From Deltaproteobacteria bacterium (GTDB taxonomy: Bacteria > Myxococcota > JADLHZ01), in NCBI GenBank assembly GCA_020848545.1, contig JADLHZ010000009.1, positions 62,001 to 126,000 of the forward strand: 64,000 bases of DNA, written 5' to 3'. Both the position numbers and the translations under genes were made by a program. Shown here piece by piece: positions 10,165-53,165 of the stretch. The notes under the pieces were generated by a model. It was given only the letters and a program-made list of their open reading frames with translations. It was not told the DNA's origin and made no database searches. Positions within the stretch are counted from its first letter, which is position 1. Every line of letters starts with the position of its first letter.

Positions 10165-11874
10165 TTATTTCCAGTTACCGATGATCTGGCTCGCGACTTC
10201 GCCGAACTTCTTCAACGCGTTCGACGCGGCGCTGTCGGCCTTCGTCATGCGCTCCATGATCATCTGCATGCGGAGCTGCTGCGCTTCGCCTTGCTCGGAG
10301 AGAGAGTCGCGGGTGTCGCGCATCTTCGAGATGTCATTCTCGGCGCTCTCGAAGTTCGTCTGATAACCGCCGCCGGTCTCGATCTCGTGCTCCTGTTGGC
10401 GCAGCGCCGCGTCGTCGGCCGGCGGAGCGGCTCCGTCCTCGGTCACTTCGCGCGAGCCCTCGGCTTCGAGGAACGACTGCTGCTTGTTCAGGCTCTTATT
10501 GTAATATTCGGGATCGCCGCCGCCGCCCTTCGGAAAGGGGACCCCCTTCTGTGCAATCATCTTCTCGGTCATCCCCTCGAACATGAGCTCTCCCTTGTTC
10601 TTGTGGGGGTTCTTCTTTGTGACGCCACCACCGCCGCCGGTGGGCGAACCGCTACCCGATGGCGAACCGCTACCCGATGGCGAACCGCTACCCGACGGCG
10701 AGCCGCTGCCCGACGGCGAACCGCTGCCCGACGGCGAAGCGCTACTTGACGCCGACGCGCTCGGCGACGGCGGGCCTTCGGGCGGCGGCGGGCCTTCGAG
10801 CATCTCTCCGTGCTGGCGCAGCGTCGCTTCGCCGGTCGTGTAGTCGATGTCGACCTTCGGCATCTGTAGCTGTTGGTATTTCAGGTAGTCGTCGAAGTCC
10901 TTGTATTTGGACTTCGTCGCCGGATCCATCGCGTCGTAGGTCGCGCGCGCCGACTTCTTCATGTCGGCGAGCTCGTCCTTCATGATCTGCTCGGCCTTAC
11001 GCAGCGCAGATCGGCGCAGGCGCGTCGCGTCCATCTCGCCGAGCATCTCGCGCATGTCTTTGCGCGCGTCTTGCGAGATCAGCATGAACATCATCATCAC
11101 GGCGTCTTCGATGCTCATGTTCGAGAAGTTGACGCCCATCTGCTGGCCTTTGCCCTGCAAGATGTTGCCGATGTCGCCGAAGACCTTGCCGCCCTCGCCG
11201 TTCAAGCGCGCGGACAGATCCTGAATGTCTTGGTTGGATGCCGTGGCCTGGGTGTCGAGGTTCGAGGTCGTGCGCATCGACGCGCCGTCGTTGCTGCCGA
11301 CTTCCTTCTTGAGCTCGCCGTTCAGCGCCTTACCCATGCGCACGGCTTCCTTCAACGTCTCTTTGAGCTGCGGATCCGCCTCGATCGCTTTGGCGATGTC
11401 GGCCGCGGTCTGCACCAGATTGCCCGTCTTCTGCAGCACGCCTTGCTGCAGCTTCTCGAACACCGCCGCGTAAGCCTTGCCAACTTCGGTCTCGAGCGCC
11501 TTGCGATCCTTCGGCGACGGAAAGCCGGTGAACGATTGCGTCGCGCCGATCTCTTCGGGGACCACGGCCAAGGCGAGCGAGTCGAGCGAGAACCCGGTCG
11601 GGAACGCGCCGGCGCTGGCGGTGCTCGCTTCTTGCGCGCCGATCAACGAGCCGCCGAGCGCGCTCAAGGTATTTCCACCGGAGATGGTCGCGCGGGCGGT
11701 CGCCACGTTGCCCGACAGCGCCTGCGCTTCGAGCGCGCTCATGGCCAGCGTCGCCGCCGCCTGTGCTGCTGCCGCGTCCGGAGCGCCGGCCTTGTTGCCG
11801 ACCGGCTTGCCGGCCGGGGCAGTCGGCTGCTGAGTGACGACGCGGGGTTGGTTTGTGATTTTGGGATCTGACAT
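10165..11874 (-). CDS. 569-aa secreted-type protein with the shared middle and C-terminal blocks
   Basis: No annotated family is recognised. Residues 1-90 are Ala/Thr/Gln-rich and low in structure. Residues about 253-295 hold the block IEDAVMMMFMLISQDARKDM and what follows, aligned without gaps to the 788-, 907- and 1134-aa proteins. A charged coiled-coil (MREMLGEMDATRLRRSALRK) and FDDYLKYQQLQMPK follow. A linker with six SGSGSP-type repeats precedes a Gly/Lys-rich part. The last 47 residues (DSLSEQGEAQQLRM ... VASQIIGNWK) are the shared C-terminal helix block. No membrane helix is evident. The ATG has GAGGAAG upstream. Inferred role: secreted filament, tip or effector-like protein using the TPR protein at 8373 as chaperone. 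Confidence 0.6.
   Translation of the reverse strand: MSDPKITNQPRVVTQQPTAPAGKPVGNKAGAPDAAAAQAAATLAMSALEAQALSGNVATARATISGGNTLSALGGSLIGAQEASTASAGAFPTGFSLDSLALAVVPEEIGATQSFTGFPSPKDRKALETEVGKAYAAVFEKLQQGVLQKTGNLVQTAADIAKAIEADPQLKETLKEAVRMGKALNGELKKEVGSNDGASMRTTSNLDTQATASNQDIQDLSARLNGEGGKVFGDIGNILQGKGQQMGVNFSNMSIEDAVMMMFMLISQDARKDMREMLGEMDATRLRRSALRKAEQIMKDELADMKKSARATYDAMDPATKSKYKDFDDYLKYQQLQMPKVDIDYTTGEATLRQHGEMLEGPPPPEGPPSPSASASSSASPSGSGSPSGSGSPSGSGSPSGSGSPSGSGSPTGGGGGVTKKNPHKNKGELMFEGMTEKMIAQKGVPFPKGGGGDPEYYNKSLNKQQSFLEAEGSREVTEDGAAPPADDAALRQQEHEIETGGGYQTNFESAENDISKMRDTRDSLSEQGEAQQLRMQMIMERMTKADSAASNALKKFGEVASQIIGNWK
10643..10750. repeat. Six 18-bp tandem repeats encoding a Ser/Gly/Pro linker
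   Basis: Six direct copies of ggcgaaccgctacccgat or close variants at 18-bp spacing, inside the 569-aa gene. Read on the minus strand they encode a flexible SGSGSP linker between the middle block and the C-terminal part. Copy number probably varies between strains (inference). Confidence 0.9.
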
Positions 11875-11967
11875 GACCCTATCTTCCTCGATCGGGGTGT
11901 TTGCGGCTAAGTTTCTTGAGGTATTCCGCCCACATCCGGGACTTCTCAGCGGAAAACAAAAGGGTTT

Positions 11968-12891: not shown

Positions 12892-12967
12892 ACGTTATCG
12901 GTACACCTTTGCGCTGGGCGGGAAAAGGGCCAACGGGGCGAGCGGTGCCGCCCAAGGTCACGTCAGC

Positions 12968-15052
12968 TCAGCCGCGCGAGGCGAGCAGCGACTGCACGCT
13001 GAACACGAGCACCAGCGCGAGCAAGATGAGGTGTGCATAGCCGCGAAAGTCGCTCGGCGCGCCCGGCGTCTTGGCGCTCGCCGCGAGGACGGCCACGTCG
13101 CCGGCGGCCCAGCGCTTGGCGAGCTCTTCGCGCGAGACCGGCTGAAAGCTCGACTCTTCGAGCGACGCGATCGCCGACGTCGCGGTGCCGATGATCGGTG
13201 GACCGCCCTCGCTCGCAGCCAGCGCATAGTGGCCGGGCGCGGGGAGGCTCGCCGTCGGATTGCTCGCATCGACGGCGATCGGCGGCGACGGCTTCTTCGT
13301 CTGCCCGAGCGCGACGACGTGCGCGCGGCTCACGCCCGCCGGCAGGACCAGCTCGCCCGGCACGCCGGCAACGTACGCGCGATCCGGCGCGCTGCGCAGC
13401 GTGCCGCCCACGTAGCGCAGCATCTGGGCGGCGAGCGGCGCGAATACGGGCCGAATCGCGAGATCGCTGAAGTCGCGGTCGATCGTGCTGAGCCACATGA
13501 GCACGCGGCCCTCGTTCGGCGCCGCCGCGCGCTCGAGCAACGCCGGCGCGCCCGAGCTGAAGCGCATCAGCTGCCGCGTCTTGTTCAAGTCCTGCGCCTC
13601 GACGAAGAAGTGGCGGAAGGTGTGGCTCTGCGTGAACGCCGGCTCGCTCACCGGATCGAAGCGGCGAAACACCGGGTGCTGCCACGCGATGTCGGTGAGC
13701 CCGAGCGCGCTCGCGAGCACGTCGTGCGCCTTCGGATCGGCGACCGCCCACTGGTCGCGCAAGCGCGCCGGCAAGATCGCGCCGAAGACCTCGTTGTACG
13801 CTTCGAAGCTCACCCGATCGCCGAGCGTGATGAGCAGGCCGCCGCCCTTCTTCACGAAGTCGGCGATCTCTTGGCCGACGCTCGCCGCCGGCGCCGGAAC
13901 GTTCGCGAGCACGAGCACCTTGTGCGCGTCCAAGCGCTGCGTCGAGAGGTCATCGGCGGCGACGACGTCGAAGGCGACCTCGGGCTTGGCGACTTGCAGC
14001 GCGCGCTCCAGGTAGAAGATCTCGTCGCGAAAGCTCACGCTTTTTGGATCGCCGTTGACGACGAGCACGCGCGGCTCGGCGAAGCGCTCGATCGCCAGCG
14101 GCGCCGTGTCGTCGTCGGCGTAACCGTCTCCCTCCGCCGCGATCGTGACGTCGCCCGGGTGCAGCCCGTCCGCGAGCTCGGTCAGCGTGAACTCACGCTC
14201 GCTGACCGCGCCAGGTGGCAGCTCGATGAAGGCGCGCGCGCGCACTTGGCCGTCGAGGGTCAGGCGCAGCTCGCCGCTCGCGGGCGCCGCGCCGAAATTG
14301 CGCGCGGTGACGATGACCCGCTCGCCGCCGTCGGACAGATGCTCGTGGACGAGCGGCCCGAGGCCCACGTTCGCCAGCGCGCGCGGCGGATCGTCGCGAT
14401 CGGCCGCGTCGACGAGCGTGACAGCGTGCACCTTGGTGCTCGCCAGCGCGTCGCCTGCGCCGAACGCGTTCTCGCTCAAGTCCGAGATGAGAAAGAGGTC
14501 GACGGAGCCTTCTCCAAAGAGCTCGAGGCCGCGCTTCACGGCGCTCGCGAGGTCGCCGCCACGCGGGCCCGGCGTCACGTCTTCGAGCGCGCCGATGAGC
14601 GCGGTGCGATCGGCGTTCGGCTGCGCCGCGAGCGGGCGCGGCTCCGTATCGGCGACGACGACGAGCGCGAGCCCTTGCGAACGATCGCGCAAGATCGCTT
14701 CGGCCTTCTTCTTCGCGCGCGCGAGCAAGGTGCTGCTGCCGAGGCGGTAGCTCATGCTGTGCGACGCATCGAGCACGATCAACGTGTCGGAGACGGCGAC
14801 CGGCGCGACCAAGCTCTTCAGGCCCGGCCCCGCGAGGCCGAACGCGAGCAGCGCAACGATGGCGATGCGCAGGAGGAGCAAGAGCAGCTGCCGCAGTTGC
14901 TCTCTGCGGGCGAGGCGCTGCACCACCTCTTCCAGGAAGTCGTAGGCCGAGAACATCAGGACCGGCGCGCGCTTTCGGCCGATCAAGTGGATCGCGATCG
15001 GCACGCCGATCAACGCGAGGCCGAAGAGCAGCGCGGGCGAGAGGAAGCTCAT
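12968..15052 (-). CDS. BatA-like VWA membrane protein
   Basis: A 694-aa protein beginning MSFLSPALLFGLALIGVPIA, the N-terminal hydrophobic module of BatA-type aerotolerance proteins. LLLLLLRIAIVALLAFGLAG forms a second membrane helix. A von Willebrand factor A domain follows with MIDAS DASHSMSYRLGSSTLLARAK (about residue 93). The rest is a CARDB/GATase-like extracytoplasmic region (VLVVNGDPKSVSFRDEIFYL), and a membrane helix closes the protein (AHLILLALVLVFSVQSLLA). The chosen ATG overlaps the DUF58 stop (ATGA 15049-15052); longer starts read into that gene. Acts with MoxR and DUF58 proteins, probably in envelope protein maturation (known association, unknown mechanism). Confidence 0.8.
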   Translation of the reverse strand: MSFLSPALLFGLALIGVPIAIHLIGRKRAPVLMFSAYDFLEEVVQRLARREQLRQLLLLLLRIAIVALLAFGLAGPGLKSLVAPVAVSDTLIVLDASHSMSYRLGSSTLLARAKKKAEAILRDRSQGLALVVVADTEPRPLAAQPNADRTALIGALEDVTPGPRGGDLASAVKRGLELFGEGSVDLFLISDLSENAFGAGDALASTKVHAVTLVDAADRDDPPRALANVGLGPLVHEHLSDGGERVIVTARNFGAAPASGELRLTLDGQVRARAFIELPPGAVSEREFTLTELADGLHPGDVTIAAEGDGYADDDTAPLAIERFAEPRVLVVNGDPKSVSFRDEIFYLERALQVAKPEVAFDVVAADDLSTQRLDAHKVLVLANVPAPAASVGQEIADFVKKGGGLLITLGDRVSFEAYNEVFGAILPARLRDQWAVADPKAHDVLASALGLTDIAWQHPVFRRFDPVSEPAFTQSHTFRHFFVEAQDLNKTRQLMRFSSGAPALLERAAAPNEGRVLMWLSTIDRDFSDLAIRPVFAPLAAQMLRYVGGTLRSAPDRAYVAGVPGELVLPAGVSRAHVVALGQTKKPSPPIAVDASNPTASLPAPGHYALAASEGGPPIIGTATSAIASLEESSFQPVSREELAKRWAAGDVAVLAASAKTPGAPSDFRGYAHLILLALVLVFSVQSLLASRG

Positions 15053-15960
15053 GCGCGCACTCTCAGAAGGTGCATGCGCCGCGAGAGATACGCGCTCAGA
15101 AGCTCGGCCGGAGGGCCGTCGGTCCACGCGAGCTGGTGATCGATGCGCGCCGCCGACAAGCGCACCGCCACCTCTTGGCGATAGCGCTGCATCTCTTGCA
15201 CGAACATCTTCTGCAGCACGCGCGGCTGCACGAACATGCGCCGGCTGTCTTCCATCGACGAGAAGAACGCCGGCGTCTCGAAGGGAAAGTCGCGCTCGTC
15301 CGGGTGCTGCACGTGTAGCACGCTGACTTCGATGCCACGCGCGGCGATGACCTCGAGCGCGTCGAGCACGCTCTGGTCACCGGGCCGCGCGCGATCGAGC
15401 AAGTCGCTGATGACGATGCACAAGCCGCGGCCGCGCACGAGCTCCGTCAGGCTCGTGACGCCTGCGGCGAGGGCGCCTTTGCCCTTCGGCTGCGCGCGCA
15501 CCAAGCGGTGCACGATCTCTTCGAAGTGCGACGAGCGCGTGCGCGCCGGCAAGAATTCACGGCCGCCATCGGCAAGCGTCATGAGGCCGACAGCGTCGCG
15601 CTGGCTCAACGCCAAGTGACAGAGCCCGGCCGCGAGCGTGCGCGCGTACGCGAGCTTGTTCGTGCCACGCGTGCCGTCGCCGTAGCCCATGGAGCCGCTC
15701 GCGTCGAAGACGACGTAGACCTTCAAGTTCGCTTCGTCTTGGAATTGCTTCAGGTAGTAGCGATCGAAGCGCGCATACGCCCGCCAGTCGATGCGGCGCA
15801 CGTCGTCGCCCGGCGCGTACTCTTTGTGCTCGGCGAACTCGACCGAGGTGCCGCGGCGCTTGGCCGAGTGGATGCCGCTGATCGCGCCGAGCGACGCTTC
15901 TTTGGCGGCGAGCGTCAGCTGCTCGACGCGCGCGATGACGTCCGGGTCGAGCGCTTCCAT
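15049..15960 (-). CDS. DUF58 protein (MoxR-associated)
   Basis: A 303-aa DUF58 protein starting MEALDPDVIARVEQLTLAAK. The family signature GRRGTSVEF-like segment (SAKRRGTSVEFAEHKEYAPG, DDVRRIDWRAYARFDRYYLK) is followed by a VWA-like part with VFDASGSMGYGDG. The ATG sits directly against the inner edge of a 165-bp inverted-repeat element. The only Shine-Dalgarno-like AGGGA lies in that element's terminal repeat, 9 bases upstream. The frame also stays open through the element (53 extra codons), so an extended form cannot be excluded, but those codons do not resemble DUF58 proteins. Confidence 0.85.
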   Translation of the reverse strand: MEALDPDVIARVEQLTLAAKEASLGAISGIHSAKRRGTSVEFAEHKEYAPGDDVRRIDWRAYARFDRYYLKQFQDEANLKVYVVFDASGSMGYGDGTRGTNKLAYARTLAAGLCHLALSQRDAVGLMTLADGGREFLPARTRSSHFEEIVHRLVRAQPKGKGALAAGVTSLTELVRGRGLCIVISDLLDRARPGDQSVLDALEVIAARGIEVSVLHVQHPDERDFPFETPAFFSSMEDSRRMFVQPRVLQKMFVQEMQRYRQEVAVRLSAARIDHQLAWTDGPPAELLSAYLSRRMHLLRVRA

Positions 15961-16125
15961 TAGGGCGTGTCCCTGAATTGGTGTCCAGCCCATTTCGGGC
16001 GCTTTTTGGTCAGCTTCCGACGAAAAATCCTCGGAATGGAACCACCATGACTGCGGTTTTTCATCGAAATCTGCCTCAAAAATCGCCTCGAACTGAGCTG
16101 AACCCCAATCCAGGGACACGCCCTA
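15961..16125. mobile_element. MITE with TA ends inserted between moxR and DUF58
   Basis: Left end TAGGGCGTGTCCCTGAATTG and right end (reverse complement) TAGGGCGTGTCCCTGGATTG match at 19 of 20 positions. The similarity continues inward to roughly 39 bp with scattered mismatches. The core of 161 bp carries no transposase. Flanking TA dinucleotides suggest TA target duplication as in IS630/mariner-type elements. The right-hand TA contributes to the moxR stop codon, and the left end abuts the DUF58 start codon. Family assignment is inferred only from the TA ends. Confidence 0.8.
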
Positions 16126-17157: not shown

Positions 17158-17166
17158 GTGGTGCCC

Positions 17167-21986: not shown

Positions 21987-22046
21987 CGGTCTATCGTAAC
22001 ACACGACCGCGCCGAAGCCATCCCGCCCGGGCGCACTATATATATG

Positions 22047-22544: not shown

Positions 22545-22720
22545 GCGCATACCCTCCTATATTATAGGGTGGCGTCGCGGATGACGACCGAAACCGTCAA
22601 ATCCGCCAGATCGCGAACGCGCTGAAGGCTTGTCGTTCCTACACAATCGACCACGTCCAAACTCGTGGACGGCGTTGTCAACGCCCGCTGACGGCCCCTG
22701 CGCAAACGCTGACGAATTCC

Positions 22721-25670: not shown

Positions 25671-28394
25671 ATGCGTATTGATGCCTCGACCTTCCGCCCG
25701 CTCGTCACCGTCGCCGAAGGCGCCGTCTCGCCGGATCTCGCGGTCGCCACCGCCGGGGGAGCGGTCGACGCGGTCGCGCCGCCGCGTCCGGCCGCGGTGG
25801 CGATCGACGCGCGCATGCCGCCGGCCAGCGCCGATCCTGCCGGCGAGGCGCTCGTCGCCTTCGCCGAGCTCGTGAACGCGCTCCCGGCCGCGCTGCCGCC
25901 GCTCGTCGGCAGCGCCTTCGCGCCGGACGTAGAGGGCGCGCCGTTGCCCGACGGGATGTTCGATCGTCAAACGATCGCCGTGGCGCTGTGCTGCGATCAT
26001 CTGATCGCAGACGCGGTGTTGCCGGAAGATGCGCAGCAACGGCTCGAGCCGATCACGGCCTATGTGACCGCGGTGCTCGCGTTCTACGAGAGTCGCGATG
26101 AGCAGCGGGACGTTGCCGCGGCGACGAACGCTTCGGCGCTCCCCCAGGCGACGCAGCTCGCGCTTGCCGAGCTCACGCCGCGCCTCGCCGAGATCTTGCG
26201 CGGTTACACAGTGGCGGCCGCCGGCGCCGCCGTGGCGTCGACAGGTCTGCGACTGGACGGCCGGCCGCGCGAGCGGGCGCCGAATCAACCGCCGCCCCCG
26301 GCGCGTGCGGCGACTCCCGCTGACGGCCGGCCGCGCGAGCGGGCGCCGAATCAACCGCCGCCCCCGGCGCGTGCGGCGACTCCCGCTGACGGCCAGCCGC
26401 GCGAGCGGGCGCCGAATCAACCGCCGCCGCCGGCGCGTGCGGCGACTCCCGCTGACGGCCAGCCGCGCGAGCGGGCGCCGAACCAACCGCCGCCGCCGGC
26501 GCGTGCGGCGACTCCCGCTGACGCGCAACTAGCGGTCGAGCAAGAAGCGCCGGCATCAGGCGACGTCGTCGTGCCTTCGCCAAGCGTTGTCGAAGAAGAG
26601 CGTGCGCTCACGCGCGCGGTCGAGCGGGCCGCTGCACCGCTGCTCGCGACCTTCGACGTCTGGCCCGCTGGCGCGGACATCGACGCGCTCGTGTCGTTGG
26701 TCATGATGCAAGCGACGCGGCTCGAGGAGGCGATCACGCGAGATCAGCTCCGCGACATGGCGGCGACGACGGCGCGAAAGAAGGCGCTGCGCAGCGAGCA
26801 AACGCGGATGAAGGAAGCGCGCGCGCGGCTCGACTCGCAGATGCAGGCGGAGTTCGACGTCCTGCGCGAGAGCGGCGCGATCGCCGCCGGTTGGACGCTG
26901 GACGATTACAAGCGATGGCGCGAGTGCCAGTGGGCGGACCCGGATCCCGCGAACGCCGGCACCGTCGCCGAGCTGACGCAGCCGTCTCCGCCCCAGGCGA
27001 TCCCTTTGTGGTTGCAGCAGGGCCCAGAGAGCGCGCCGGCGGAAGCGGCAGCGGTCGGCGCGAGCGACAACGTCGATGGCGGCAGCGACCCCGGCGCCGC
27101 GAGCGCGTGCGAGCGCTACGGCTTGTCGGCCGACGTCGAGCGCGTGCTTCGCCGCATCTACGACGGCTTGCCGGCCGACGAGCGTGCTCTCTACACTTCC
27201 TTCGACGATTTCCTCGCCGGGCAGGGCTTTCTCGCTGCCGACGGCATCGGCGACGTCCGCGAGAACCTCCTGCGCGTGCAAGAGCTGATCGTCGCGGCGA
27301 CAGACCAGGCGCGGAGCGCTGCGACCACTGGCGCCGTCGACTCGGTCGCGCTCACCGAGGTGACGGGCGAGAACGGTCGCGTCCGACAGGCGATGCGCGA
27401 GCTCGTGCAGTGGCAGCTCCTCGCCGCCGCCGGCGTCGACGTCGGCTCGAACGTGACGCGGTGTCAGGACACGCTCGCTGAGCTCTGCGCGAACGCGCCT
27501 GCGACCGCGGCGTTCGCCGATGCCTATGCGGCCATGGTCGACGAGGTCGTCGCCGAAGCGCGCGCCGGCGTCGCGTACATGTTCGACCAGATGAACGGCT
27601 GGCAAGACGAAGGTCCGGGCGCGGTCGGCGTGAACATCGAAGACGACTTCACCGACGCCGAGGACGTCGTTCGCGGCGAGGACGAAAACCACGAGCGCTG
27701 GGTCGCGCACGAATCCGACGCCAACGAAGGAACCTCGCACGCTACGGGCGCGTGGTGGGACGGACGCGGCGGGCACGGCACCTTCCACTATCGCGAGACC
27801 GACGATGCCAATAGCAGCGGTGACCGCGAGTACGGGTTCCTCGGCGACCCGAAGCCCGGCTGGGTGAGCGCGCTCGAAGATCGACTGGGCTCGCGTCGTC
27901 AGCAGATCGACGTCTCCTCTTTTACCGCCGTGCTCGACTTTCTCGACGGCGCTGCGGCGGCGAACGCGTTCCAGCCGGCCGACATCCCCGCGGAAGATGC
28001 GATCGCAACGGGGCTCACGGCAGATGCATGCCATGAGCTGAAGCGTGTCATCGACAGTGCGCTCTCTGACCTGCGAAACCCGGCGAGTCGATACCGCTCC
28101 TGGCTCGAGGAGCGTTGCTTTGCCCAGGCAGAACCCGCTGAGCATGCGGCTGGTACGCGCATGCGTGGCGACACGGTCGACGCGCCGCTCGCGCATCGCG
28201 GCACGCTGGCGTCGTTCGACGCGGCGATCTCCGCGGTCAGCGACGAGCTCGATTCGCTGAGCGAGGCCGGTGAGATCGAGATGATCCGGCTCCAGAGCGC
28301 GCTCGATCGACGGCAGAAGATGATCGACGCGCTCTCGAACGTGCTGAAGAAGAACAGCCAGACACAAGAGAACATCGTCAGCAACCTGAAGTGA
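25671..28394 (+). CDS. 907-aa secreted-type protein with the shared middle and C-terminal blocks
   Basis: No annotated family recognised. Residues 1-195 are Ala-rich; 196-283 are four 22-residue repeats (DGRPRERAPNQPPPPARA ...). The shared middle block DIDALVSLVMMQATRLEEAI ... TTARKKALRS lies at about 335-376 and is followed by LDDYKRW. Then YGLSADVERVLRRIYDGLPA (about 481), a segment also seen in the 788-aa protein. Residues about 640-740 are acidic and His-rich. The last 47 residues (DSLSEAGEIEMIRL ... QENIVSNLK) are the shared C-terminal helix block. No membrane helix. A TPR gene starts 8 bases downstream. Inferred secreted structural or effector protein of a chaperone-dependent secretion route. 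Confidence 0.65.
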   Translation: MRIDASTFRPLVTVAEGAVSPDLAVATAGGAVDAVAPPRPAAVAIDARMPPASADPAGEALVAFAELVNALPAALPPLVGSAFAPDVEGAPLPDGMFDRQTIAVALCCDHLIADAVLPEDAQQRLEPITAYVTAVLAFYESRDEQRDVAAATNASALPQATQLALAELTPRLAEILRGYTVAAAGAAVASTGLRLDGRPRERAPNQPPPPARAATPADGRPRERAPNQPPPPARAATPADGQPRERAPNQPPPPARAATPADGQPRERAPNQPPPPARAATPADAQLAVEQEAPASGDVVVPSPSVVEEERALTRAVERAAAPLLATFDVWPAGADIDALVSLVMMQATRLEEAITRDQLRDMAATTARKKALRSEQTRMKEARARLDSQMQAEFDVLRESGAIAAGWTLDDYKRWRECQWADPDPANAGTVAELTQPSPPQAIPLWLQQGPESAPAEAAAVGASDNVDGGSDPGAASACERYGLSADVERVLRRIYDGLPADERALYTSFDDFLAGQGFLAADGIGDVRENLLRVQELIVAATDQARSAATTGAVDSVALTEVTGENGRVRQAMRELVQWQLLAAAGVDVGSNVTRCQDTLAELCANAPATAAFADAYAAMVDEVVAEARAGVAYMFDQMNGWQDEGPGAVGVNIEDDFTDAEDVVRGEDENHERWVAHESDANEGTSHATGAWWDGRGGHGTFHYRETDDANSSGDREYGFLGDPKPGWVSALEDRLGSRRQQIDVSSFTAVLDFLDGAAAANAFQPADIPAEDAIATGLTADACHELKRVIDSALSDLRNPASRYRSWLEERCFAQAEPAEHAAGTRMRGDTVDAPLAHRGTLASFDAAISAVSDELDSLSEAGEIEMIRLQSALDRRQKMIDALSNVLKKNSQTQENIVSNLK
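26256..26519. repeat. Four 66-bp tandem repeats encoding Pro/Arg-rich 22-mers
   Basis: Four near-identical 66-bp units start at 26256, 26322, 26388 and 26454. They encode a Pro/Arg/Ala repeat with the core RERAPNQPPPPARAATPADG, an extended linker between the N-terminal region and the middle block of the 907-aa protein. Near identity points to recent amplification. Confidence 0.95.
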
Positions 28395-28402
28395 GGGACG
28401 TA

Positions 28403-28915
28403 ATGGAGACGGCGACGGATCTGCGAGCGACAGCGGCGGCGGTGGCGCGAGGCGAGCTGAGCGCGCTCTCCTTCCTCGGCTTGACGGCGAAGGACGGCGA
28501 AGTGTTTGCAGGCTTCGCGGCGGCGTTGCTCAATCGAGGCAAGACCTCCAAGGCGGCGGCGTGCGCGCAACTCGCGGTGGCGCTCGCGCCGGGCGACGGG
28601 CTCGCGTGGCTCGTCCTCGGCTGCGCCCGAGCGCGGCTCGGACAGGACGCTGCAGCGCTGGCCGCGTACGAAACCGCGGCACGACTCAAGCCGGAGAGCG
28701 CGCGCGTTTGGGTCGATCTCGCGGAGCTCGCGCTCGCGCGCCTCGACCACACAACCGCTTGCGCCGCGCTCCGCTGCGCGCTCGCCGTGGACCCCGCCGG
28801 CAGGACGCCGGCCGGCGCGCGCGCGCAGTGGATCATCGCCCGCACGGTTCGCGAGCTCGGGGGCGGTTCGGCGACGGAGCGGCGCGCGTCGTCTCAGCGC
28901 GGGACGCCTCTATGA
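28403..28915 (+). CDS. TPR chaperone-like protein of the 907-aa cassette
   Basis: A 170-aa all-helical protein with three TPR units (FAGFAAALLNRGKTSKAAAC, WLVLGCARARLGQDAAALAA, WVDLAELALARLDHTTACAA). The C-terminal signature is D-x5-P-A-G-A-R-A, followed by WIIARTVREL. The ATG at 28403 follows the 907-aa stop by 8 bases, with GAGGGA overlapping that stop. A GTG at 28391 is also in frame. Layout matches SycD/LcrH-like chaperones that sit beside their secreted substrates. Confidence 0.65.
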   Translation: METATDLRATAAAVARGELSALSFLGLTAKDGEVFAGFAAALLNRGKTSKAAACAQLAVALAPGDGLAWLVLGCARARLGQDAAALAAYETAARLKPESARVWVDLAELALARLDHTTACAALRCALAVDPAGRTPAGARAQWIIARTVRELGGGSATERRASSQRGTPL

Positions 28916-29466
28916 GCGCACCTATCGACAAGCAACGCTCCGCCGGGTGGACGGAGCCACGAGATGCTTCCGTCGCGCGCGCCGGCGCGTCGGCTGACAT
29001 CGTGACACGAGCCCTCGCGCTCAACCCGGAGCTCGCCAAGACGACGTCAACCGAGGCCGCCCTCGCCGCCCTGTCGCAGCAGCGCGCGCTCCCGGCGCAG
29101 GCGAAGGCTCCGGCGCGTCCGCGGCTCCTCGACGCGCGTCCACCGGCCACGCCTGAGACGCGCGACTTCGTCGCACGCGTCGGCGCAAGCAAGCGTGACC
29201 ACGCCGCCGCGAAGCTCGGCTTCGCAAAGGCCGCCGCCGCGCTCGACGCCGAGGCACGTGCGCTGGCGATCGAGCGACAGGCGCAGGCGGACGCGGCGCT
29301 TGCGGCGGTGGTCGATCTGCTTCGCCGCGTCGATCCGACGCTCGCCTCGCCGAAGACGAAGGTGGTGCTCGAGGCCGACGCGCGCTTTCTCGCGAGCATC
29401 GGCTTTCGACCGGAGCTCGCCGGACGGAAGAAGGAGAGGGATGACCATGGCGAACGTCATCAGTGA
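28912..29466 (+). CDS. Coiled-coil protein A of the cassette
   Basis: A 184-aa protein whose ATG overlaps the TPR stop (ATGA). The N-terminus has VTRALALNPELAK; the middle has an Ala-rich coiled-coil (AKLGFAKAAAALDAEARALA), and the end reads FLASIGFRPEL then basic residues. The NP-L motif, central coil and FLAxIGF end are shared with the proteins at 29441 and, more weakly, 46645. No known family. Coiled-coil size would suit a small cytosolic export accessory, but this is inference. Confidence 0.5.
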   Translation: MSAPIDKQRSAGWTEPRDASVARAGASADIVTRALALNPELAKTTSTEAALAALSQQRALPAQAKAPARPRLLDARPPATPETRDFVARVGASKRDHAAAKLGFAKAAAALDAEARALAIERQAQADAALAAVVDLLRRVDPTLASPKTKVVLEADARFLASIGFRPELAGRKKERDDHGERHQ

Positions 29467-29905
29467 AGAAGCGGTGCGCACCTTGCTCAAGCTCAACCCA
29501 GGGCTTCGTGAGAGCCTGGCGAAGGGCGGCGCCACGACGATCGAGGTCAAAGATGCGGCCGCCCGCACCGTCGAGGGGCAGGGACCACCGCCGGCGAGCA
29601 CGCCGCCGCGCACCGCGCTCAGCCTGGCTGAGGAGCTCGCGCGGATCGCGAAGACGTTCGCTGCCGCTCGCGCCGAGACCACGTTGCGCGAGAAGGCGCT
29701 GGCGGCACGGCGCGAAGCGCTGGCCAGGGAGGCACGCACTGAGGCCGCCGTGTGCTGTGAGGAGCTGGTTCGAGCGCTCATCGCCGTCGACCGAAACGTC
29801 GCCCAGCGTAGAAACCAGGCGATCCTCGAGCAGGAGAAGGCGTTCCTCGCCGAGATCGGCTTTTCGCTCGAGCGCGTGCTCGCTGCCGAACGCCGCGGTT
29901 TCTAG
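29441..29905 (+). CDS. Coiled-coil protein B of the cassette
   Basis: A 154-aa paralogue of protein A. The N-terminus is VISEEAVRTLLKLNPGLRES, the middle is a coil (LREKALAARREALAREARTE) and the end is EQEKAFLAEIGFSLERVLAA. AAGGAGAGGG lies just before the ATG at 29441; ATG at 29447 is an alternative. It overlaps the end of protein A by 26 bases. Last gene of the four-gene cassette 25671-29905. Confidence 0.5.
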   Translation: MTMANVISEEAVRTLLKLNPGLRESLAKGGATTIEVKDAAARTVEGQGPPPASTPPRTALSLAEELARIAKTFAAARAETTLREKALAARREALAREARTEAAVCCEELVRALIAVDRNVAQRRNQAILEQEKAFLAEIGFSLERVLAAERRGF

Positions 29906-41243: not shown

Positions 41244-41269
41244 TCTCGACGCATCGTTGTACCCATGAA

Positions 41270-44139: not shown

Positions 44140-44146
44140 GGGCGCC

Positions 44147-46513: not shown

Positions 46514-46644
46514 ACGCCCTCCTTGTTGAACCTACCCTGTACGGACGACCTCGGCCAACCGGGAGCGCGCGCTGGCGCGTCTGCGCGGGCGCTTGGCGCG
46601 CGTCCTCGTCTCTTCACTTTGCGGACATACTACTCAGCCAGACT

Positions 46645-47148: not shown

Positions 47149-47152
47149 CGCT

Positions 47153-47542
47153 TCATCTTTCCCCGAGCTGCTTTTCGAGCTTGAACGCGAGCACGCGCGC
47201 GCGCCGGCCGGCCGGCGTCGCGGCGGCCTTGTCGATCGCGAACGCGCGCTCGAGCGCGGTCACCGCCATCGCCGGATCGGCGGCTTCCATCGCCGCCTCG
47301 GCCAAGCACACGCAGACCTCTACGTCCTCCGGCATCAGCTCGAATAAACGCAAAAACCACCGCGCGGCTTCCGGCGCACGCTCCAGCCGGGCGAGCGCGA
47401 GCCCGACGGCGGCGACGAGCTCGGTGTCGCGGCTGCCGTCCGGCACCATCGGCAAGATGAGCTGCACGACGAGATCGGGAGAGACGCGTAACAGATTCAA
47501 CGCCGCGGTGCCCATCGCGCTCGGCTTGCGCTGGCTGCTCAT
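47153..47542 (-). CDS. TPR chaperone-like protein
   Basis: A 129-aa protein starting MSSQRKPSAMGTAALNLLRV; ATG overlaps the stop of the 210-aa gene (ATGA 47539-47542). TPR-like helices (LVAAVGLALARLERAPEAAR; VCLAEAAMEAADPAMAVTAL) end in D-x5-P-A-G-R-R-A-R then VLAFKLEKQL. Unlike the other TPR genes it does not directly follow one of the giant proteins, so its partner may be the 391-aa or the 210-aa protein (inference). Confidence 0.6.
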   Translation of the reverse strand: MSSQRKPSAMGTAALNLLRVSPDLVVQLILPMVPDGSRDTELVAAVGLALARLERAPEAARWFLRLFELMPEDVEVCVCLAEAAMEAADPAMAVTALERAFAIDKAAATPAGRRARVLAFKLEKQLGER

Positions 47543-48171
47543 GACACGACCCCGGTAGTCGTTGCCGCGACAATCGGCCGCGCCGCAAACGCTGCCGCAA
47601 GCAACGCCAACATATCTGCGCGCTGCTGCAACGTCTCTTTCAGCTCTGCCGCGGGCGGCTCGCGCTTGGCGAGAAGCGCCGCGAGCGGCTTCTCCAGCAG
47701 ATCCGCGCAACGCGCGAGGACGAGCAGAGCCCACGTGTCCGGAGGGAACACATCGCTAAACCGGCCCGCGGCGATCGCCAACGCGATGGCCGCGCGTCCT
47801 TGCGAATCGGGCGCACCGCCCCGGCAGGCTCGTCGCGTGGCGCCGGCCACCGCGTCGATCGCCGCCGCATCTTCTTTTGCGTGGCGCGCCAAGAACGCCT
47901 CGGCCGCCTTGCGCTCGCCACCAAGCAGGAGCGCGCGAACGGCGTCCTTGCGACGCATCATGCGCTCGCGCTCCGCCGGATCGCTGGGAAAGGGACCGAG
48001 GAGCGCGCGCACGACGAGCTCGGGCGGCAAGAGCGAGGTGAGCGCGACGAACTGGTCGGCGTCGGCGAGCTGTAGCGCGTAGGCGGCGGCCATCTCGCCG
48101 GCAGGCGGTTCGGTGACCGAGTCGGTGAGCTTGCGCAGGCGCTTTTTGAGCTCGTCGTTCTTCTTCTTCAT
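47539..48171 (-). CDS. 210-aa helical protein related to the 391-aa neighbour
   Basis: Mostly Ala/Leu-rich helices, basic at the start (MKKKNDELKKRLRKLTDSVT). Residues about 20-55 (PPAGEMAAAYALQLADADQF, VALTSLLPPELVVRALLG) align with SPTGDIGKRHALGLAEPKGF, AALSLLLPPDRL of the 391-aa protein. No known family. Both ends overlap neighbours by ATGA, showing tight coupling. Confidence 0.5.
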   Translation of the reverse strand: MKKKNDELKKRLRKLTDSVTEPPAGEMAAAYALQLADADQFVALTSLLPPELVVRALLGPFPSDPAERERMMRRKDAVRALLLGGERKAAEAFLARHAKEDAAAIDAVAGATRRACRGGAPDSQGRAAIALAIAAGRFSDVFPPDTWALLVLARCADLLEKPLAALLAKREPPAAELKETLQQRADMLALLAAAFAARPIVAATTTGVVS

Positions 48172-49343
48172 GCGCTATCGCCCGCGCGGACGTGGCTGGC
48201 GACGATCTTCGACACTTGCTCGTGCCAGCCGGCACGCCGCTCGAAGAAGGATTGTAGACGTTGCTTCGTCGCTTCGTTCTTGGCGTCGAGCGCCGCCGCT
48301 TCGCGCTGACCGTCGTCCGTGCGCGCCGCGATGCGTTCGCGCGCGCCGCTGACGTCTTTCCAGGCGACGTCGCCCTCCGCGGCGGGTGCGCGCTGGGATC
48401 CGGCGCTGCCATACAGCGTCTCCTCCGCGCTCACGCGCAAAACCGGCGGCTCGCCGGCGCCGTCGAGCGTGCCGCGCACGACACGCACGGGTTGCTCTGA
48501 CGCAAAACGTGCGAAGTCGACAACTTTGGCGTCGATGCGCCGCGGATCTTTCGGATCTTTGATCGCGACACGCTCGTCGTAGCGCGCGTGCAGCTCTTTT
48601 TCGAGCCGCGCGCTCTCGCCGTCGAGGGCACCGGCGAACGCGGTCAACGCTTGGCGCGCCGGCGCCGCGGCGCTACGGAGCTCGGCCTGCCCGCGAGCCT
48701 CGTCGAGCAGCGCTGGCAGCTCACCGTCGCCGCCGGCTTTGATGAGCACCGTCGCCGCAATGCTGTCGGCGCCGACGTTCGCATTGGCAAGCACCGCCGC
48801 ATGACCGCTGAGCGCTTGCCGAAGCTGCTCGGGCGACGCACGCGTGGCGAGTAATTGCCCAAGCGCACCCGCCATCGCGCTCAGCGCGTCCGCCACGGCC
48901 GGCGGGAGTTGATTCAGAAACAACTCGGCGCTCGCGCGCTCTTCACGCAAGAGCTTGCCGCCCGCATCACCGCGCGTCGCCAGTTCGGCGAGCCGGTCCG
49001 GCGGAAGCAGCAAGCTCAAGGCGGCAAAGCCCTTCGGCTCGGCGAGCCCGAGGGCGTGCCTCTTGCCGATGTCTCCGGTCGGAGACGTCGTCACGCTGGC
49101 GGCGAGCGCACCGACGTGCTCTTTCAGCGTCTCGAGCTGCGCCTGCGTGAGCGGCGGCGCGTCGAGCGCGCCGGCGGCGGCGCCAGCAGTTCGCGCCGAG
49201 ACGGCCGGACCCTGGGCCGTCGCCCGATCGAGACCTCGTGGCTGGACGTCGGCGACGGTCTCAGTGGCCTTCGTCTCCGTTGCCGGCGCCGTTTCTTCGG
49301 TCGGCGTCGTCGGGATTGTTCCTGGCGGTTCTCGAACTCGCAT
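48168..49343 (-). CDS. 391-aa operon protein
   Basis: The start MRVREPPGTIPTTPTEETAP is chosen because it lies just after the upstream TPR stop (8-base gap). Residues 1-75 are Thr/Ala/Pro-rich, like the giant proteins' N-termini. The centre is helical, with the segment shared with the 210-aa protein (KEHVGALAASVTTSPTGDIG). From about 240 a charged region (LEKELHARYDERVAIKDPKD) leads to a helical end (QRLQSFFERRAGWHEQVSKI). No family recognised. Possibly another exported substrate given its N-terminus (inference). Confidence 0.5.
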   Translation of the reverse strand: MRVREPPGTIPTTPTEETAPATETKATETVADVQPRGLDRATAQGPAVSARTAGAAAGALDAPPLTQAQLETLKEHVGALAASVTTSPTGDIGKRHALGLAEPKGFAALSLLLPPDRLAELATRGDAGGKLLREERASAELFLNQLPPAVADALSAMAGALGQLLATRASPEQLRQALSGHAAVLANANVGADSIAATVLIKAGGDGELPALLDEARGQAELRSAAAPARQALTAFAGALDGESARLEKELHARYDERVAIKDPKDPRRIDAKVVDFARFASEQPVRVVRGTLDGAGEPPVLRVSAEETLYGSAGSQRAPAAEGDVAWKDVSGARERIAARTDDGQREAAALDAKNEATKQRLQSFFERRAGWHEQVSKIVASHVRAGDSA

Positions 49344-49351
49344 GGGCGTCC

Positions 49352-49756
49352 TCAGCTCTGCAGCCGGCGTTTGATCTCTTTTTGCATCCGCACGATCACG
49401 ACCCGCGCGCGCACCCCGCTCGGATGTCGCATTTGCGGATCGCGTTGGCAACAAAGCTTCAGCTCGGCGAGCGCGCCTTTGTAGTCGAGCAGGTCAATGA
49501 GCAGCTCGGCGTAAGCGACGCGAATGTCGAGGTTGTCGGGCTCGAGCGCCAAAGCCTGACGCAGCGCAAACACCGCGTACTTGTGCTCGTTCTCGGCGAG
49601 ATCGAGGAGCGCGAGCGCGTGCCAGGCATCCGCTCGCCGGGGTTCTGTCGAGACCACGCGCGCGACCATTTCGCGAGCGCCGCGCGGAGAGCGTTCGCGG
49701 CTCTGCCATGCGAGGCGCAGCACGCGATCGTTTTGGGCTTTCTGTGCCGTGCTCAT
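49352..49756 (-). CDS. TPR chaperone-like protein following the 1134-aa gene
   Basis: A 134-aa protein with TPR units (WHALALLDLAENEHKYAVFA; RVAYAELLIDLLDYKGALAE) and the end signature D-x5-P-S-G-V-R-A-R, then VVIVRMQKEIKRRLQS. ATG at 49756 lies 4 bases after the giant gene's stop; a GTG at 49759 is an alternative. Likely dedicated partner of the 1134-aa protein. Confidence 0.65.
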   Translation of the reverse strand: MSTAQKAQNDRVLRLAWQSRERSPRGAREMVARVVSTEPRRADAWHALALLDLAENEHKYAVFALRQALALEPDNLDIRVAYAELLIDLLDYKGALAELKLCCQRDPQMRHPSGVRARVVIVRMQKEIKRRLQS

Positions 49757-49760
49757 CACT

Positions 49761-52700
49761 CTATCCCTTCAGATTGGCGACGATGTTGCCGCGCGTCTCG
49801 CTCGCCTTCTTCATCATGTTCGAGAGCATGTCGAAGATCTTCGCGCGGCGATCTTGGTAGAGCTGTAGCTTCATCGCCAGCTCGTTCGTGATGTCGCCGA
49901 GCGTGTCCTTCTTGCCTTCCCACTCGTCGATCACCGCCTTCAGCTCGCCCATCGAGATCTGGCGCAGATCACTGTAGACGGGCGGCTTGTCGCGCTCCTC
50001 CGCCGCCACCAGCTGCGCGATCGCCGCGCTGACCGCTGGGGACGGGGGTGTCCCGGTGCCCTGCCGACCGCCGTTGTTGTTGCCGCCATTGTTGTTTGTG
50101 TTGTTGTTCGTACTGCCGCCGGCCGGCGTTTTCTTCTTCTCCGCGTCGATGAGCGCCTTCACTTGCGCGCCTGTTTTCTCATCGGGTTGACGCGCCGTGT
50201 TCACGTGCAGATCGTTCGTCAGGAATCCCGTGAGCCCGTCGCGCCACTTGTTCTGATCTTCCGTGCTCCACTGCGGCGCGGTCTGGTGGTGGCCCCACGG
50301 CGAGATGTGGTTGGTATGGGTGTACGGCTGCGTCGGGCTCGGGTGCGTATTGAGAAAGGCCTCGCCGGTGCGAAAGATCCCGTTCGGTTGGCTCGGGTTG
50401 AGGCCGGCGGCACCGAGATCGCGCGCGATCTCGGCGAGCTGCAGCTGCACGTAGGCCTCGGCTTTGGCGCGCGCCGCGGGTCCCTGCGTCTGCTCGATCA
50501 CCCGTAGCTTGGCGGCGAGCTGGCTCTTGGCGTCGGTCTTCGTGTGATTGAAGCTTTTCGTGTTGTGGACCGTGTCCTCGGCGATCTGCGTGTTGACGTC
50601 GAGGATCAAGTCGTCGAGCCGCGAGGCGTCCTCGGGGTTCAGGCGGCCGCGCGCCTCGACGATCGCCTTATGTAGAGTCTTTTCCGTCTCGCTGTAGGCG
50701 GCCGTACCGGACGGCGGACTGGTCATCAACTCGCGCAGGATCTCGGTCTGGGTCTTTCCGACGGAAGGGTAGTAGCTCGCCTCGAGCGCTTCGAGCTCGT
50801 CGGCCGAGAGGGAGCTGGTGATGCGCCCATCGTTGTTCGTGCCCGCGCCCGCCGGCGGCCCAGGGGGCGGTGAGTCTGCATATTGCTTCGCCTTGGCCGC
50901 GGCGGCGTTCTTGGCCTTGTTGGCGGCGTACTTGGCCTCGCAGTCGACCTTGGAAAAAAAGGTGGTCGTGTCGGCAAGGAGCAAGGGATCGTAGACGTTC
51001 GCCTCGCTCGGGCCCCAGATCCAATGCGTCTTGCCCTTGCAGTCGACGCAGCAGTCGTTGTTGCTGCCGCAGAGCCCCTTGCAGATCACACTCGACGAGC
51101 GGAACGGATTGCCGATCCCCGCGTCCGTCTTCGAACGCTCGAGCATCTTGTGGCCGTTCACGAGCAACGCATTGACGTAGTTCTTGGCGAAGTCTTTGTC
51201 GTCGCCAAAAGCGTTGATCGCGGTCGTGAGCGCGTCCCTCGAGGCCTTCATCTGCGTTTCTTGCTCGCCGACCCAATCGTTTGCCCAGGCCTTGGCGGCG
51301 CCGAGCGCCATCATGTCGTTGACGTACTTGGCGAGCGCGTCGTTGAGCTTCGCGGTCAAGACGGGATCTTTGAGCAGCGACAGCCCGATCCTCACGATGT
51401 CGGCTTCGACGTTCGGCCCGGTCGAGAGCGTGAGCCCCGCGAACGGATCCTTGTCGACGTTGCCGCCGTCCTTGGCCGCATTGAAGAAGGCGTTCACGGC
51501 CGCCGTCGCGTTGCTCATCCCCGGCGACAAACCCGGCCCTGCCGGCGCCGAGGTCGTCAGCCACGATTCGAACGCTTCGTTACCCGCGCCCGGGTTCGCG
51601 GCGTTGAAGTACTCGCGCAGCGCCGCCCGCTGCTGCTCGGAGATGTTGATGACGGCGTTGCCACCGCTGTCGCCGCTCACGTTGCTCAGATCGACGTCGG
51701 AGTTCTTGGTCTTCCAATCCGTGATGAACGCGTTGACGATCCCGTCTTGGCTCGCCGTCGCCGGCAAGGTCAGCCCGAGCCCGCCGGAAGCCTTCGGCGA
51801 CAGCAGAAACGCCTCGAACGAGACGTGCTTGCGCAGCGACGCGTCCTTGCTCCACATCGCCTTCAGGTCGGCGAGCGCCTCGGGCGCGACCTTGAGGCGC
51901 CTCGCTTCGAGCACGAGCTGCGCTGGAATCTTGTTGCCGTTGCCGTCGAAGATCTCCGGGCCCTTCTGAGGGTAGTAGACGACGTTCGCGCTGACATCGA
52001 GCGCGAGGCCGCCGACCGGCAAGCCGTTCTCGTCGACGGCGTTTGGATCGCCGCGTTTTACCGCCAGTTGCTGCGACGCGCAGTAATCCTCGAACGACGT
52101 GATGCTCGGTTCGATGTGCAGGTTCTTGTCGTCGCTCGCGCAGCGCACGTCATACTCGTGACGCAGGCGCTTTTGCATCTCGGCCTGCTGCTTCTTCAGC
52201 GCCACGACGTGCTCGCGCACGGCTTTCTTCTGCGCGTTGTTCGCCTTCACCTCGTTGATCATGCTGCGCAGATCGTCGGTGGCGTCGCGCCCGCACTCCA
52301 TCATGACGATCTGCACGAGCGAATCGATGTCGCCGTCGCCGACCGGCAGGCTGCCAAAGGTGCTGCCGAGGCTCTTTTCGAAGGCGAGCACATCTGGTCC
52401 TGGCAATGAGACAGGCCCAAGGCCGAAGCGAACGCCTTCGTCGACCTCGTCGGTCATGCGCTTGGACGCGTCTTTGCCGGCGGTCCTTGCGGCCCCAGGC
52501 TCCGCCTTCGCTTCGGTCCCCGTGAGCTTGGCGTGGCGCAGCGCCTTGGCGACGCTCGCCGGCAAGAACTCGGCGAAGCGCGTCTGCACCTGCTCCGTGA
52601 GCTTGGCGACCGCCGCCTGCGTCGGCGGCGGCAGCGTCGAGATCAGGCGATCGATCGTCGCCTGCTCGACCTTCGCCGTGAGCGCGTCGGCGACGGCGTC

Positions 52701-53165
52701 GTCGACGATCAAGCCGCGATCACCCAGGCGGTTCGCCGTCTCGAACATCCACTCGGCGGGCAACGCGCTGGTGTCGACCGGTTTCTCGATCTCCGGACGA
52801 TTGAGCTCGAACTTCCCCGCCACGCGCACGTCGCTCGGCTTCTCGCCCATCTGCTCGATCAGCTGGGCGACCTCGGCCGAAACCGCCTCGAGGTCGGCGT
52901 CCGACGTCGGCTCGGACGCCTTCTGCGCCATCGTGGCAGCGAGGGGACCGCCGCTCTTGAAATCGTCGTTCGAGGCAAAGGCAAGGCGTGTCGCTTCGAC
53001 GCCCGCTTGCCCGGCCACGTTCGCCGCCCCGGGATCGAGCCCGGCCGCCGCCTCGTTCGTCCCTGCCTCACCGATTTTTCCCGCGTTCGCGGGGGTTTCC
53101 GCCGGTGACGCTGGGCGTTCAAGCGCGGCCGGGACGGGTCGGTCGACTTTGTCGGGGATTCGCAT
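49761..53165 (-). CDS. 1134-aa secreted-type protein with the shared blocks and a Cys cluster
   Basis: The largest family member; start MRIPDKVDRPVPAALERPAS at 53165 (a TTG at 53180 is also in frame). The first 100 residues are low complexity. The shared block DIDSLVQIVMMECGRDATDD ... ANNAQKKAVRE is at about 280-322, followed by FEDYCASQQL. Segments near 427 (LKAMWSKDASLRKHVSFEAF) and 505 recall the IYD-LP segment of the 788- and 907-aa proteins. At about 690 lies a Cys cluster (CKGLCGSNNDCCVDCKGKTH). An Asn-rich linker (NNNTNNNGGNNNGG) precedes the end block (DTLGDITNELAMKL ... GNIVANLKG). No membrane helix. Confidence 0.65.
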   Translation of the reverse strand: MRIPDKVDRPVPAALERPASPAETPANAGKIGEAGTNEAAAGLDPGAANVAGQAGVEATRLAFASNDDFKSGGPLAATMAQKASEPTSDADLEAVSAEVAQLIEQMGEKPSDVRVAGKFELNRPEIEKPVDTSALPAEWMFETANRLGDRGLIVDDAVADALTAKVEQATIDRLISTLPPPTQAAVAKLTEQVQTRFAEFLPASVAKALRHAKLTGTEAKAEPGAARTAGKDASKRMTDEVDEGVRFGLGPVSLPGPDVLAFEKSLGSTFGSLPVGDGDIDSLVQIVMMECGRDATDDLRSMINEVKANNAQKKAVREHVVALKKQQAEMQKRLRHEYDVRCASDDKNLHIEPSITSFEDYCASQQLAVKRGDPNAVDENGLPVGGLALDVSANVVYYPQKGPEIFDGNGNKIPAQLVLEARRLKVAPEALADLKAMWSKDASLRKHVSFEAFLLSPKASGGLGLTLPATASQDGIVNAFITDWKTKNSDVDLSNVSGDSGGNAVINISEQQRAALREYFNAANPGAGNEAFESWLTTSAPAGPGLSPGMSNATAAVNAFFNAAKDGGNVDKDPFAGLTLSTGPNVEADIVRIGLSLLKDPVLTAKLNDALAKYVNDMMALGAAKAWANDWVGEQETQMKASRDALTTAINAFGDDKDFAKNYVNALLVNGHKMLERSKTDAGIGNPFRSSSVICKGLCGSNNDCCVDCKGKTHWIWGPSEANVYDPLLLADTTTFFSKVDCEAKYAANKAKNAAAAKAKQYADSPPPGPPAGAGTNNDGRITSSLSADELEALEASYYPSVGKTQTEILRELMTSPPSGTAAYSETEKTLHKAIVEARGRLNPEDASRLDDLILDVNTQIAEDTVHNTKSFNHTKTDAKSQLAAKLRVIEQTQGPAARAKAEAYVQLQLAEIARDLGAAGLNPSQPNGIFRTGEAFLNTHPSPTQPYTHTNHISPWGHHQTAPQWSTEDQNKWRDGLTGFLTNDLHVNTARQPDEKTGAQVKALIDAEKKKTPAGGSTNNNTNNNGGNNNGGRQGTGTPPSPAVSAAIAQLVAAEERDKPPVYSDLRQISMGELKAVIDEWEGKKDTLGDITNELAMKLQLYQDRRAKIFDMLSNMMKKASETRGNIVANLKG

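Follow-up and report, generated by a model that had tools for sequence, protein, structure and literature searches.

A window of 64,000 nucleotides from a myxococcotal genome (Deltaproteobacteria bacterium, GTDB lineage Bacteria; Myxococcota; JADLHZ01; assembly GCA_020848545.1, contig JADLHZ010000009.1, positions 62,001 to 126,000) encodes four large proteins that end in one common C-terminal module. They belong to a family of 34 proteins scattered over this genome, often in tandem, most of them with a gene for a small tetratricopeptide repeat (TPR) protein nearby. We lean towards the view that these giants are filament or tip subunits of a type III secretion system (T3SS), carrying variable heads and attended by TPR chaperones. 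The export, chaperone binding, polymerisation and head function that this view entails are proposals, drawn from the resemblance of the module to T3SS needles, from the neighbouring genes and from the location of relatives in other genomes.

An earlier note on this DNA, made from the letters alone, had described the four open reading frames (569, 788, 907 and 1134 aa), and we recovered them as described, ends included; the longest measures 1139 aa if counted from the first TTG and carries one extra C-terminal glycine. The gap-free alignment of their last 47 residues was confirmed, with 13 to 22 identities per pair (z 6.7–9.9). In each of the six pairs the observed score was reached by none of 20,000 shuffles, and in all six the best ungapped placement was the C-terminal one. 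The invariant columns were likewise as reported, namely D1-x-L3, Q15, R20, K23, S29-N30, I42, N45 and K47, which in a 56-column alignment become D10, L12, Q24, R29, K32, S38, N39, I51, N54 and K56; I2 of that longer alignment falls outside the 47-residue end. The fixed end on variable bodies is real, and it is not the sole common part. All four proteins also share a second conserved helical segment farther upstream, here called the M-block as opposed to the C-block at the end, and its presence rules out a family confined to the C-terminus. A 428-aa protein in the window is a fifth, divergent relative (E 9e-5 to member 4 by blastp).

Profiles of the two blocks were run over the source genome (7.99 Mb; gene calls based on GC content at third codon positions, longest start chosen). 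The C-block profile found 33 places, all but one of them at E ≤ 1e-12 and the last at 1.1e-8, and the M-block profile behaved likewise. The 34 family proteins range from 292 to 1412 aa; 33 have the C-block, 33 the M-block and 32 both. That the motif ends the protein, as the earlier note had claimed, was borne out in this genome, where the C-block stops 0–2 residues before the stop codon in all 33 members that have it, and elsewhere, where it lies 0–3 residues from the stop in 42 of 42 distinct relatives, these being the top-ranked matches and not a random sample. A larger C-block profile of 33 rows (A7) recovers the 33 C-block members and adds a 608-aa protein on contig 125 (E 2e-5) that the smaller profile had missed. 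This protein (L046:6061-7887) combines glycine-rich hydrophobic stretches with a needle-like C-terminal end. A 370-aa protein (L036:11047-12159) has the M-block and lacks the C-block.

The bodies between the two blocks are highly variable. In the 32 members with both, the interval from M-block to C-block measures 29–865 aa, and at E ≤ 1e-5 similarity between middle regions extends to only 31 of 496 pairs. Pfam gave no credible domain for the bodies, either with the four window giants (E ≤ 0.1) or with the 34 members (E ≤ 0.01), and NCBIfam no credible family with the 34 members. By eye, member 2 contains four near-identical proline-rich repeats at about residues 198–285, and the 569-aa protein Ser-Gly-Pro repeats. 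Chance similarity of amphipathic helices would be in keeping with the helical composition of the blocks and with the best PDB match of the C-block profile, a designed helical protein. It is contradicted by the shuffle test with its high z scores, by the 33 genomic places and by the constant terminal position of the motif, and we find it hardly credible.

The earlier note had also expected TPR genes near the family, and this expectation was well founded. They lie within 1.5 kb of 25 of the 34 members versus 3 of 99 control genes (at least 290 aa, from 12 other loci of the same genome, counted with the same TPR profile), the profile having been built from the neighbours that it then counts together with SycD-like genes. 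Directly downstream on the same strand (≤30 bp, overlaps included), a TPR match was found for 19 members and for none of the 99 controls. Seven of the nine members without a TPR gene stand upstream of a second member in a tandem pair, and it is this second member that has the TPR gene; the remaining two are L028 and L043. We infer that the adjacent small TPR proteins are putative chaperones of the giants. A 389-aa member on contig 102 (L038) adjoins four SycD-like genes (LcrH_SycD E 3e-20, 1.1e-11, 2.4e-27 and 6e-17, all below the cut-off) and lies near possible SctE- and SctB-like genes; the SctE-like gene has a weak family match (T3SSipB, E 0.012) and the SctB-like one none. Other neighbours recur as well: 18 of the 34 members have a coil protein, c1, no more than 1.5 kb away, and Ser/Thr kinase-like genes, recognised by eye, form a cluster of 12 proteins (c2). 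Against the PDB, the c1 profile found unrelated coils only, and the TPR profile was uninformative, TPR being generic.

The resemblance to needles is concentrated at the C-terminal end. Over the whole genome of about 8 Mb, PF09392 gave five matches at E ≤ 1, four of them in family members and one in the 608-aa protein, whose score was the best (27.1 bits versus a cut-off of 29.4). TIGR02105 (III_needle) matches the last 62 residues but one of the 389-aa member (E 0.0044; residues 328–388 of 389 aligned with model positions 11–72 of 72) and the end of the 608-aa protein (E 0.0013), with scores of 17.4 and 19 versus a cut-off of 41.7. When the C-block profile was compared with the PDB (E ≤ 10), eight sequences were returned at E 0.26–2.3; five of these are PrgI or MxiH needles, aligned up to their last residue with profile positions 47/48–68 (E 0.68–1.1, not significant alone). 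The M-block profile found nothing relevant there. Each of these needle matches is weak by itself, and together they point in the same direction. At the other end of the protein, none of the 34 members has a Sec-like N-terminus (highest hydropathy over 12 residues within the first 45 aa ≤1.38, longest-frame starts), and all 34 have the polar N-terminus without Sec signal that is expected of a T3SS substrate.

AlphaFold2 models predict a long M helix and a long C helix in both proteins modelled, at residues 119–172 and 240–300 of a small relative and at 217–307 and 695–787 of the 788-aa window protein, mostly with pLDDT (per-residue confidence) of 70–92. With VIA, both models drew matches, mainly to coiled coils, that cover the two helices. 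For the 788-aa model the arms of SMC proteins come first (Z 12.5), which we read as a generic antiparallel coiled coil; the small model also matches the EspA filament, flagellar filament-assembly chains, PrgI-SipD and SipD, all below unrelated helical proteins in score.

The source genome encodes parts of an export apparatus besides its flagellar one. A flagellar cluster on contig 153 has FHIPEP and FliP matches, the rest of it being recognised by eye. Apart from this cluster, an SctV is encoded on contig 123 (826 bits, cut-off 692) and an SctR on contig 84, the latter flanked by SctQ-, SctS- and SctT-like genes, which were identified from where they lie and from their likeness to clusters in other genomes. 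The sctV and sctQRST genes are scattered in the genome.

Relatives in other genomes bring the family closer to T3SS genes. The C-block was found (E ≤ 1e-4) in 132 of 195 genomes of the phylum, the source genome having the most by far and the next 13; there is no other genome in the family or order of the window. FHIPEP, whose counts include flagellar as well as T3SS proteins, was found in 125 of the 132 profile-positive versus 36 of the 63 negative genomes (Fisher p 5e-10), and SctV over its cut-off in 89 of 132 versus 24 of 63 (p 1.7e-4), both without phylogenetic correction. T3SS core genes are present in 7 of the 26 A7-bearing loci read, from six genomes; these loci come from top-ranked matches, and L104 and L105 share one genome, as do L106 and L107. 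Among the matches listed, 28 of the 93 usable profile rows (119 in all), from 18 of 45 genomes, are no more than 25 kb away from an SctV row; the SctV rows are a selection of those listed, and some of them are below the cut-off. Of these 28, 13 lie 1.1–4.4 kb from sctV in five genomes (genes read as 72–74 aa in three). Another 12, with frames of 195–462 aa, are spread over 12 genomes at a distance of 16–23 kb. The rest are a 183-aa frame 6.5 kb away and a single genome's pair of frames, 672 and 955 aa long.

The shortest relatives are 72–74-aa proteins with a needle-like C-terminus that are encoded inside T3SS clusters (L103:8675-10190, L104:9818-11359 and L106:8812-9030), in genomes that we take to be Myxococcus-like from their T3SS gene order. 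L103 and L104 carry four tandem copies each, which within a genome are identical or almost identical; L106 carries one. CGGAG stands upstream of all eight L103 and L104 copies, and between the two loci the copies differ by 8–12 synonymous versus 5–7 nonsynonymous codon changes. Two of these proteins were scanned; neither matched III_needle in NCBIfam, and both matched PF09392 only, below its cut-off (E 0.018 and 0.0061). Across nine relatives scanned, PF09392 was the top Pfam match in four and did not match the other five. Proteins of about 200 aa stand directly beside a TPR gene in the T3SS clusters of L105 and L117, and relatives are encoded with T3SS apparatus genes at L105, L117, L122 and L128. 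Between sctV and a TPR gene, the T3SS cluster of L106 also contains a DUF1521 protein (L106:12472-13704, E 9e-18).

These observations can be assembled into a mechanism. The M-block helix and the C-block helix at the extreme C-terminus would form a needle- or EspA-like hairpin, with the large variable domain inserted between them. In the cytoplasm, the adjacent small TPR protein would cap the C-block, as YscG does with YscF, and the apparatus (sctV, sctQRST) would export the giant via its polar N-terminus. Outside the cell, a needle-like core or tip would be built from packed C-block helices, with the variable body on display, so that the 34 paralogues might represent one bacterium's repertoire of interchangeable heads. 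In known systems the needle protein YscF is bound in its C-terminal half by the TPR protein YscG, and chaperones of this kind keep assembly from starting too early (PMC3084799); another source describes the C-terminal helix of the needle as forming the core and the N-terminal region as facing outward (PMC6455054). A protein with a needle-like last helix and a body before it could therefore be held by a TPR protein, exported, and assembled with the body outward. Filament subunit, tip and mere export tail are not told apart by sequence.

If the needle-like end were only a tail for chaperone binding and export or targeting, the giants would be effectors or translocators, injected or released by a T3SS. 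Large, mutually dissimilar bodies, with the 31 matching pairs of middle regions among 496, would suit such proteins, as would the TPR genes near 25 of 34 members and the one member beside SycD-like and possible SctE- and SctB-like genes. Effector signals, however, are usually N-terminal, and the tail of the giants coincides with the known needle end to the last residue. The stand-alone 72–74-aa proteins, which consist of little beyond the tail and lie in T3SS clusters, argue for a structural module. We consider the effector or translocator explanation unlikely, though it keeps real weight.

Several observations weigh against filament or tip subunits. The link to needle and EspA-type subunits drawn in the earlier note found support in sequence only below curated cut-offs: every needle-model score of the members stays under its threshold, III_needle is matched by 2 of the 34 at E ≤ 5, and 4 of 14 control genomes also match PF09392 at E ≤ 1, none over the cut-off. 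None of the EspA family models in Pfam matched the 34 members (E ≤ 0.01), and NCBIfam gave no significant match for SseB (1 of 34, E 0.29), SipD (1 of 34, E 0.064) or HrpE (1 of 34, E 0.013). The structure models were built from seven-row alignments and have pTM (global confidence) values of 0.40 and 0.33, and their last 20–30 residues or so, the needle-like part, have a mean pLDDT of 54–79. Foldseek found no match at E ≤ 0.001 for the model of the small relative; the EspA filament is among its VIA matches (Z 8.5, root-mean-square deviation 4.1, 146 residues aligned) but at rank 23, below unrelated helical proteins and within the noise of helical models. Two of the TPR proteins adjacent to giants were scanned; LcrH_SycD either fits them less well than other TPR models do or does not match.

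The genomic context is mixed. The earlier note's link between the family and T3SS clusters is true of some relatives; the giants of this genome lie among unrelated genes, not in such a cluster. FHIPEP is missing in 7 of the 132 profile-positive genomes, five of which are less than 90% complete; 43 of the 132 are without SctV over the cut-off, and 24 genomes with such an SctV are without the profile. In 369 gammaproteobacterial genomes (the class of the L125 genome), the profile has matches in 17 at E ≤ 0.01, four of which reach E ≤ 1e-5; a single listed frame has the size of a needle (82 aa, E 0.009). One of the four, on the favourable side, is a 184-aa protein (L128), matched by no filament model, next to which are encoded SctD, SctJ and an SctF needle above their cut-offs, a CesT chaperone gene and a YscE-like gene below its cut-off; the SctD, SctJ and SctF queries were taken from L128, whose own matches to them are circular, and its identity rests on the family-model matches. 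The C-block profile did not find the true needle of this cluster, and it therefore follows a filament-like branch and not the classical needles.

A further group of relatives bears on the scope of the module. Three relatives of 204–301 aa, in metagenome-assembled genomes of Syntrophaceae, Aminicenantes and Gammaproteobacteria, have Sec-like N-termini (hydropathy maximum 2.29–2.62 in the first 60 aa). No T3SS core genes were found at their loci (L123, L124 and L125), and FHIPEP was found in one of the three genomes, whose completeness is unknown, and not in the other two. The earlier note had held that hits in unrelated contexts would speak against a secreted, polymerising family, and such hits exist in part, as relatives with Sec-like N-termini away from T3SS loci; for two of them, no FHIPEP was found in the genome. 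These relatives and the profile-positive genomes that lack FHIPEP indicate that the hairpin module is not tied to T3SS everywhere, and the Sec-like forms argue against an exclusively T3SS role of the family. By profile, L124, L125 and L129 have both blocks and L123 the C-block only; L129 is a further small relative with a hydrophobic N-terminal stretch, recognised by eye, and no T3SS core genes nearby.

The same relatives are evidence for a family of secreted or periplasmic coiled-coil proteins that is independent of T3SS, needle-like through general helix similarity and recruited near T3SS genes in some lineages; the sub-threshold needle scores and the true needle missed by the profile fit it too. 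What separates the giants from such a family is the lack of any Sec-like signal in the 34 members, whose maximum of 1.38 compares with 2.29–2.62. FHIPEP and SctV are, moreover, commoner in profile-positive genomes (again without phylogenetic correction), and relatives are located in T3SS clusters repeatedly. We regard T3SS independence as quite improbable for the giants, and continue with filament or tip subunits as the preferred interpretation.

Compared with known systems, the family is closest to, and distinct from, several T3SS components. The needle SctF (PF09392/TIGR02105; MxiH, PrgI, YscF) is about 70–90 aa long, its models having 71–72 positions, whereas the members have large bodies and reach 292–1412 aa; this size, with the sub-cut-off scores, rules them out as needle subunits in the strict sense. 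The profile also misses a true needle, the giants here are not in a T3SS cluster, and 72–74-aa relatives were read only in other genomes. Shared with SctF are the C-terminal helix at or within two residues of the protein's end and the precedent of a TPR chaperone (PMC3084799). The chaperones SycD/LcrH and YscG are, like the TPR proteins here, small and encoded beside the presumed substrate, and SycD-like genes occur at L038; they differ in that the scanned TPR partners of two giants fit generic TPR models better. In the EspA/SseB filament proteins and the tip proteins IpaD, SipD and LcrV (SctA), a pair of long helices, one of them extremely C-terminal, flanks a variable insert. The low-confidence models of a giant and a small relative suggest this layout too, the EspA filament is among the fold matches of the latter, and relatives of about 200 aa lie inside T3SS clusters. 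By contrast, no EspA, SseB or SipD model matches significantly, the members are far larger, and there are 34 paralogues.

Myxobacterial T3SS are held to be without secretin, needle and translocon, as two sources state (PMC12075869, PMC10849154). A third infers that an ancestral SctF was lost, adds that it would have been detected if present, and raises the possibility that nothing is secreted to the outside by this system (PMC3459982). The T3SS* of Myxococcus xanthus is described in these needleless terms, and yet our profile finds small proteins in the T3SS clusters of genomes taken as myxobacterial. Among the titles and abstract openings listed in the literature searched, with subscription papers and preprints outside its scope, none reports needle-like or giant needle-tailed proteins in Myxococcota. 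The needle, tip, filament and chaperone families are known already; the same listings yielded no giant, strongly multiplied forms that share a single fixed C-terminal module.

The candidate needle proteins in clusters of the "needleless" kind are the most consequential part of these results. If the 72–74-aa and roughly 200-aa proteins are needle and filament subunits, the needleless view changes and becomes testable genetically. We offer as a tentative proposal, one that may well prove wrong, that myxobacterial T3SS are not needleless and possess a divergent 72–74-aa needle subunit together with EspA-like filament proteins, the latter expanded in the lineage of the window to 34 interchangeable giants whose heads differ, for example for recognising or attacking different prey. 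Were this true, 34 giant variants in one genome would amount to unusual, modular and swappable T3SS filament heads. Their logic would be comparable to that of the Kil pilus, whose tips are adaptable (PMC12075869); Kil tips differ in being pilins.

Table 1 Family members and neighbouring genes in the 64,000-nucleotide window (positions of the window)
Feature	Position	Strand	Remarks
Family member 1, 569 aa	10165..11874	-	M-block 10930-11121, C-block 10168-10335
Family member 2, 907 aa	25671..28394	+	M-block 26670-26861, C-block 28224-28391
TPR protein, 174 aa from first start	28391..28915	+	TPR families; adjoins stop of member 2; putative chaperone
c1-type coil protein frame, 236 aa from first start, probably shorter	29195..29905	+	Neighbour cluster c1
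TPR protein, 133 aa	43738..44139	-	Directly downstream of member 3; putative chaperone
Family member 3, 788 aa	44147..46513	-	M-block 45683-45874, C-block 44150-44317
c1-type coil protein, 167 aa	46645..47148	-	Upstream of member 3
210-aa protein	47539..48171	-	Neighbour cluster c9; clustered with the 428-aa divergent relative
428-aa divergent relative	48168..49454	-	C-terminal end alignable only in part
TPR frame, 135 aa, GTG start	49352..49759	-	TPR match 14 bp downstream of member 4; putative chaperone
Family member 4, 1134-1139 aa	49761..53180	-	M-block 52146-52337, C-block 49767-49934, one extra Gly

Other genes of the window lie between these features. Positions 12968–22004 hold a cluster of BatA/VWA, DUF58, MoxR-type ATPase, TPR-peptidase and DUF4175 genes, followed at 22047–22550 by a 167-aa coiled-coil protein in which a short tandem repeat was noticed by eye. 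A PIN-domain gene and a Phd/YefM-like gene, the latter below the cut-off, at 24113–24771 are likely to form a toxin-antitoxin pair, and a second PIN gene is located at 34044–34460.

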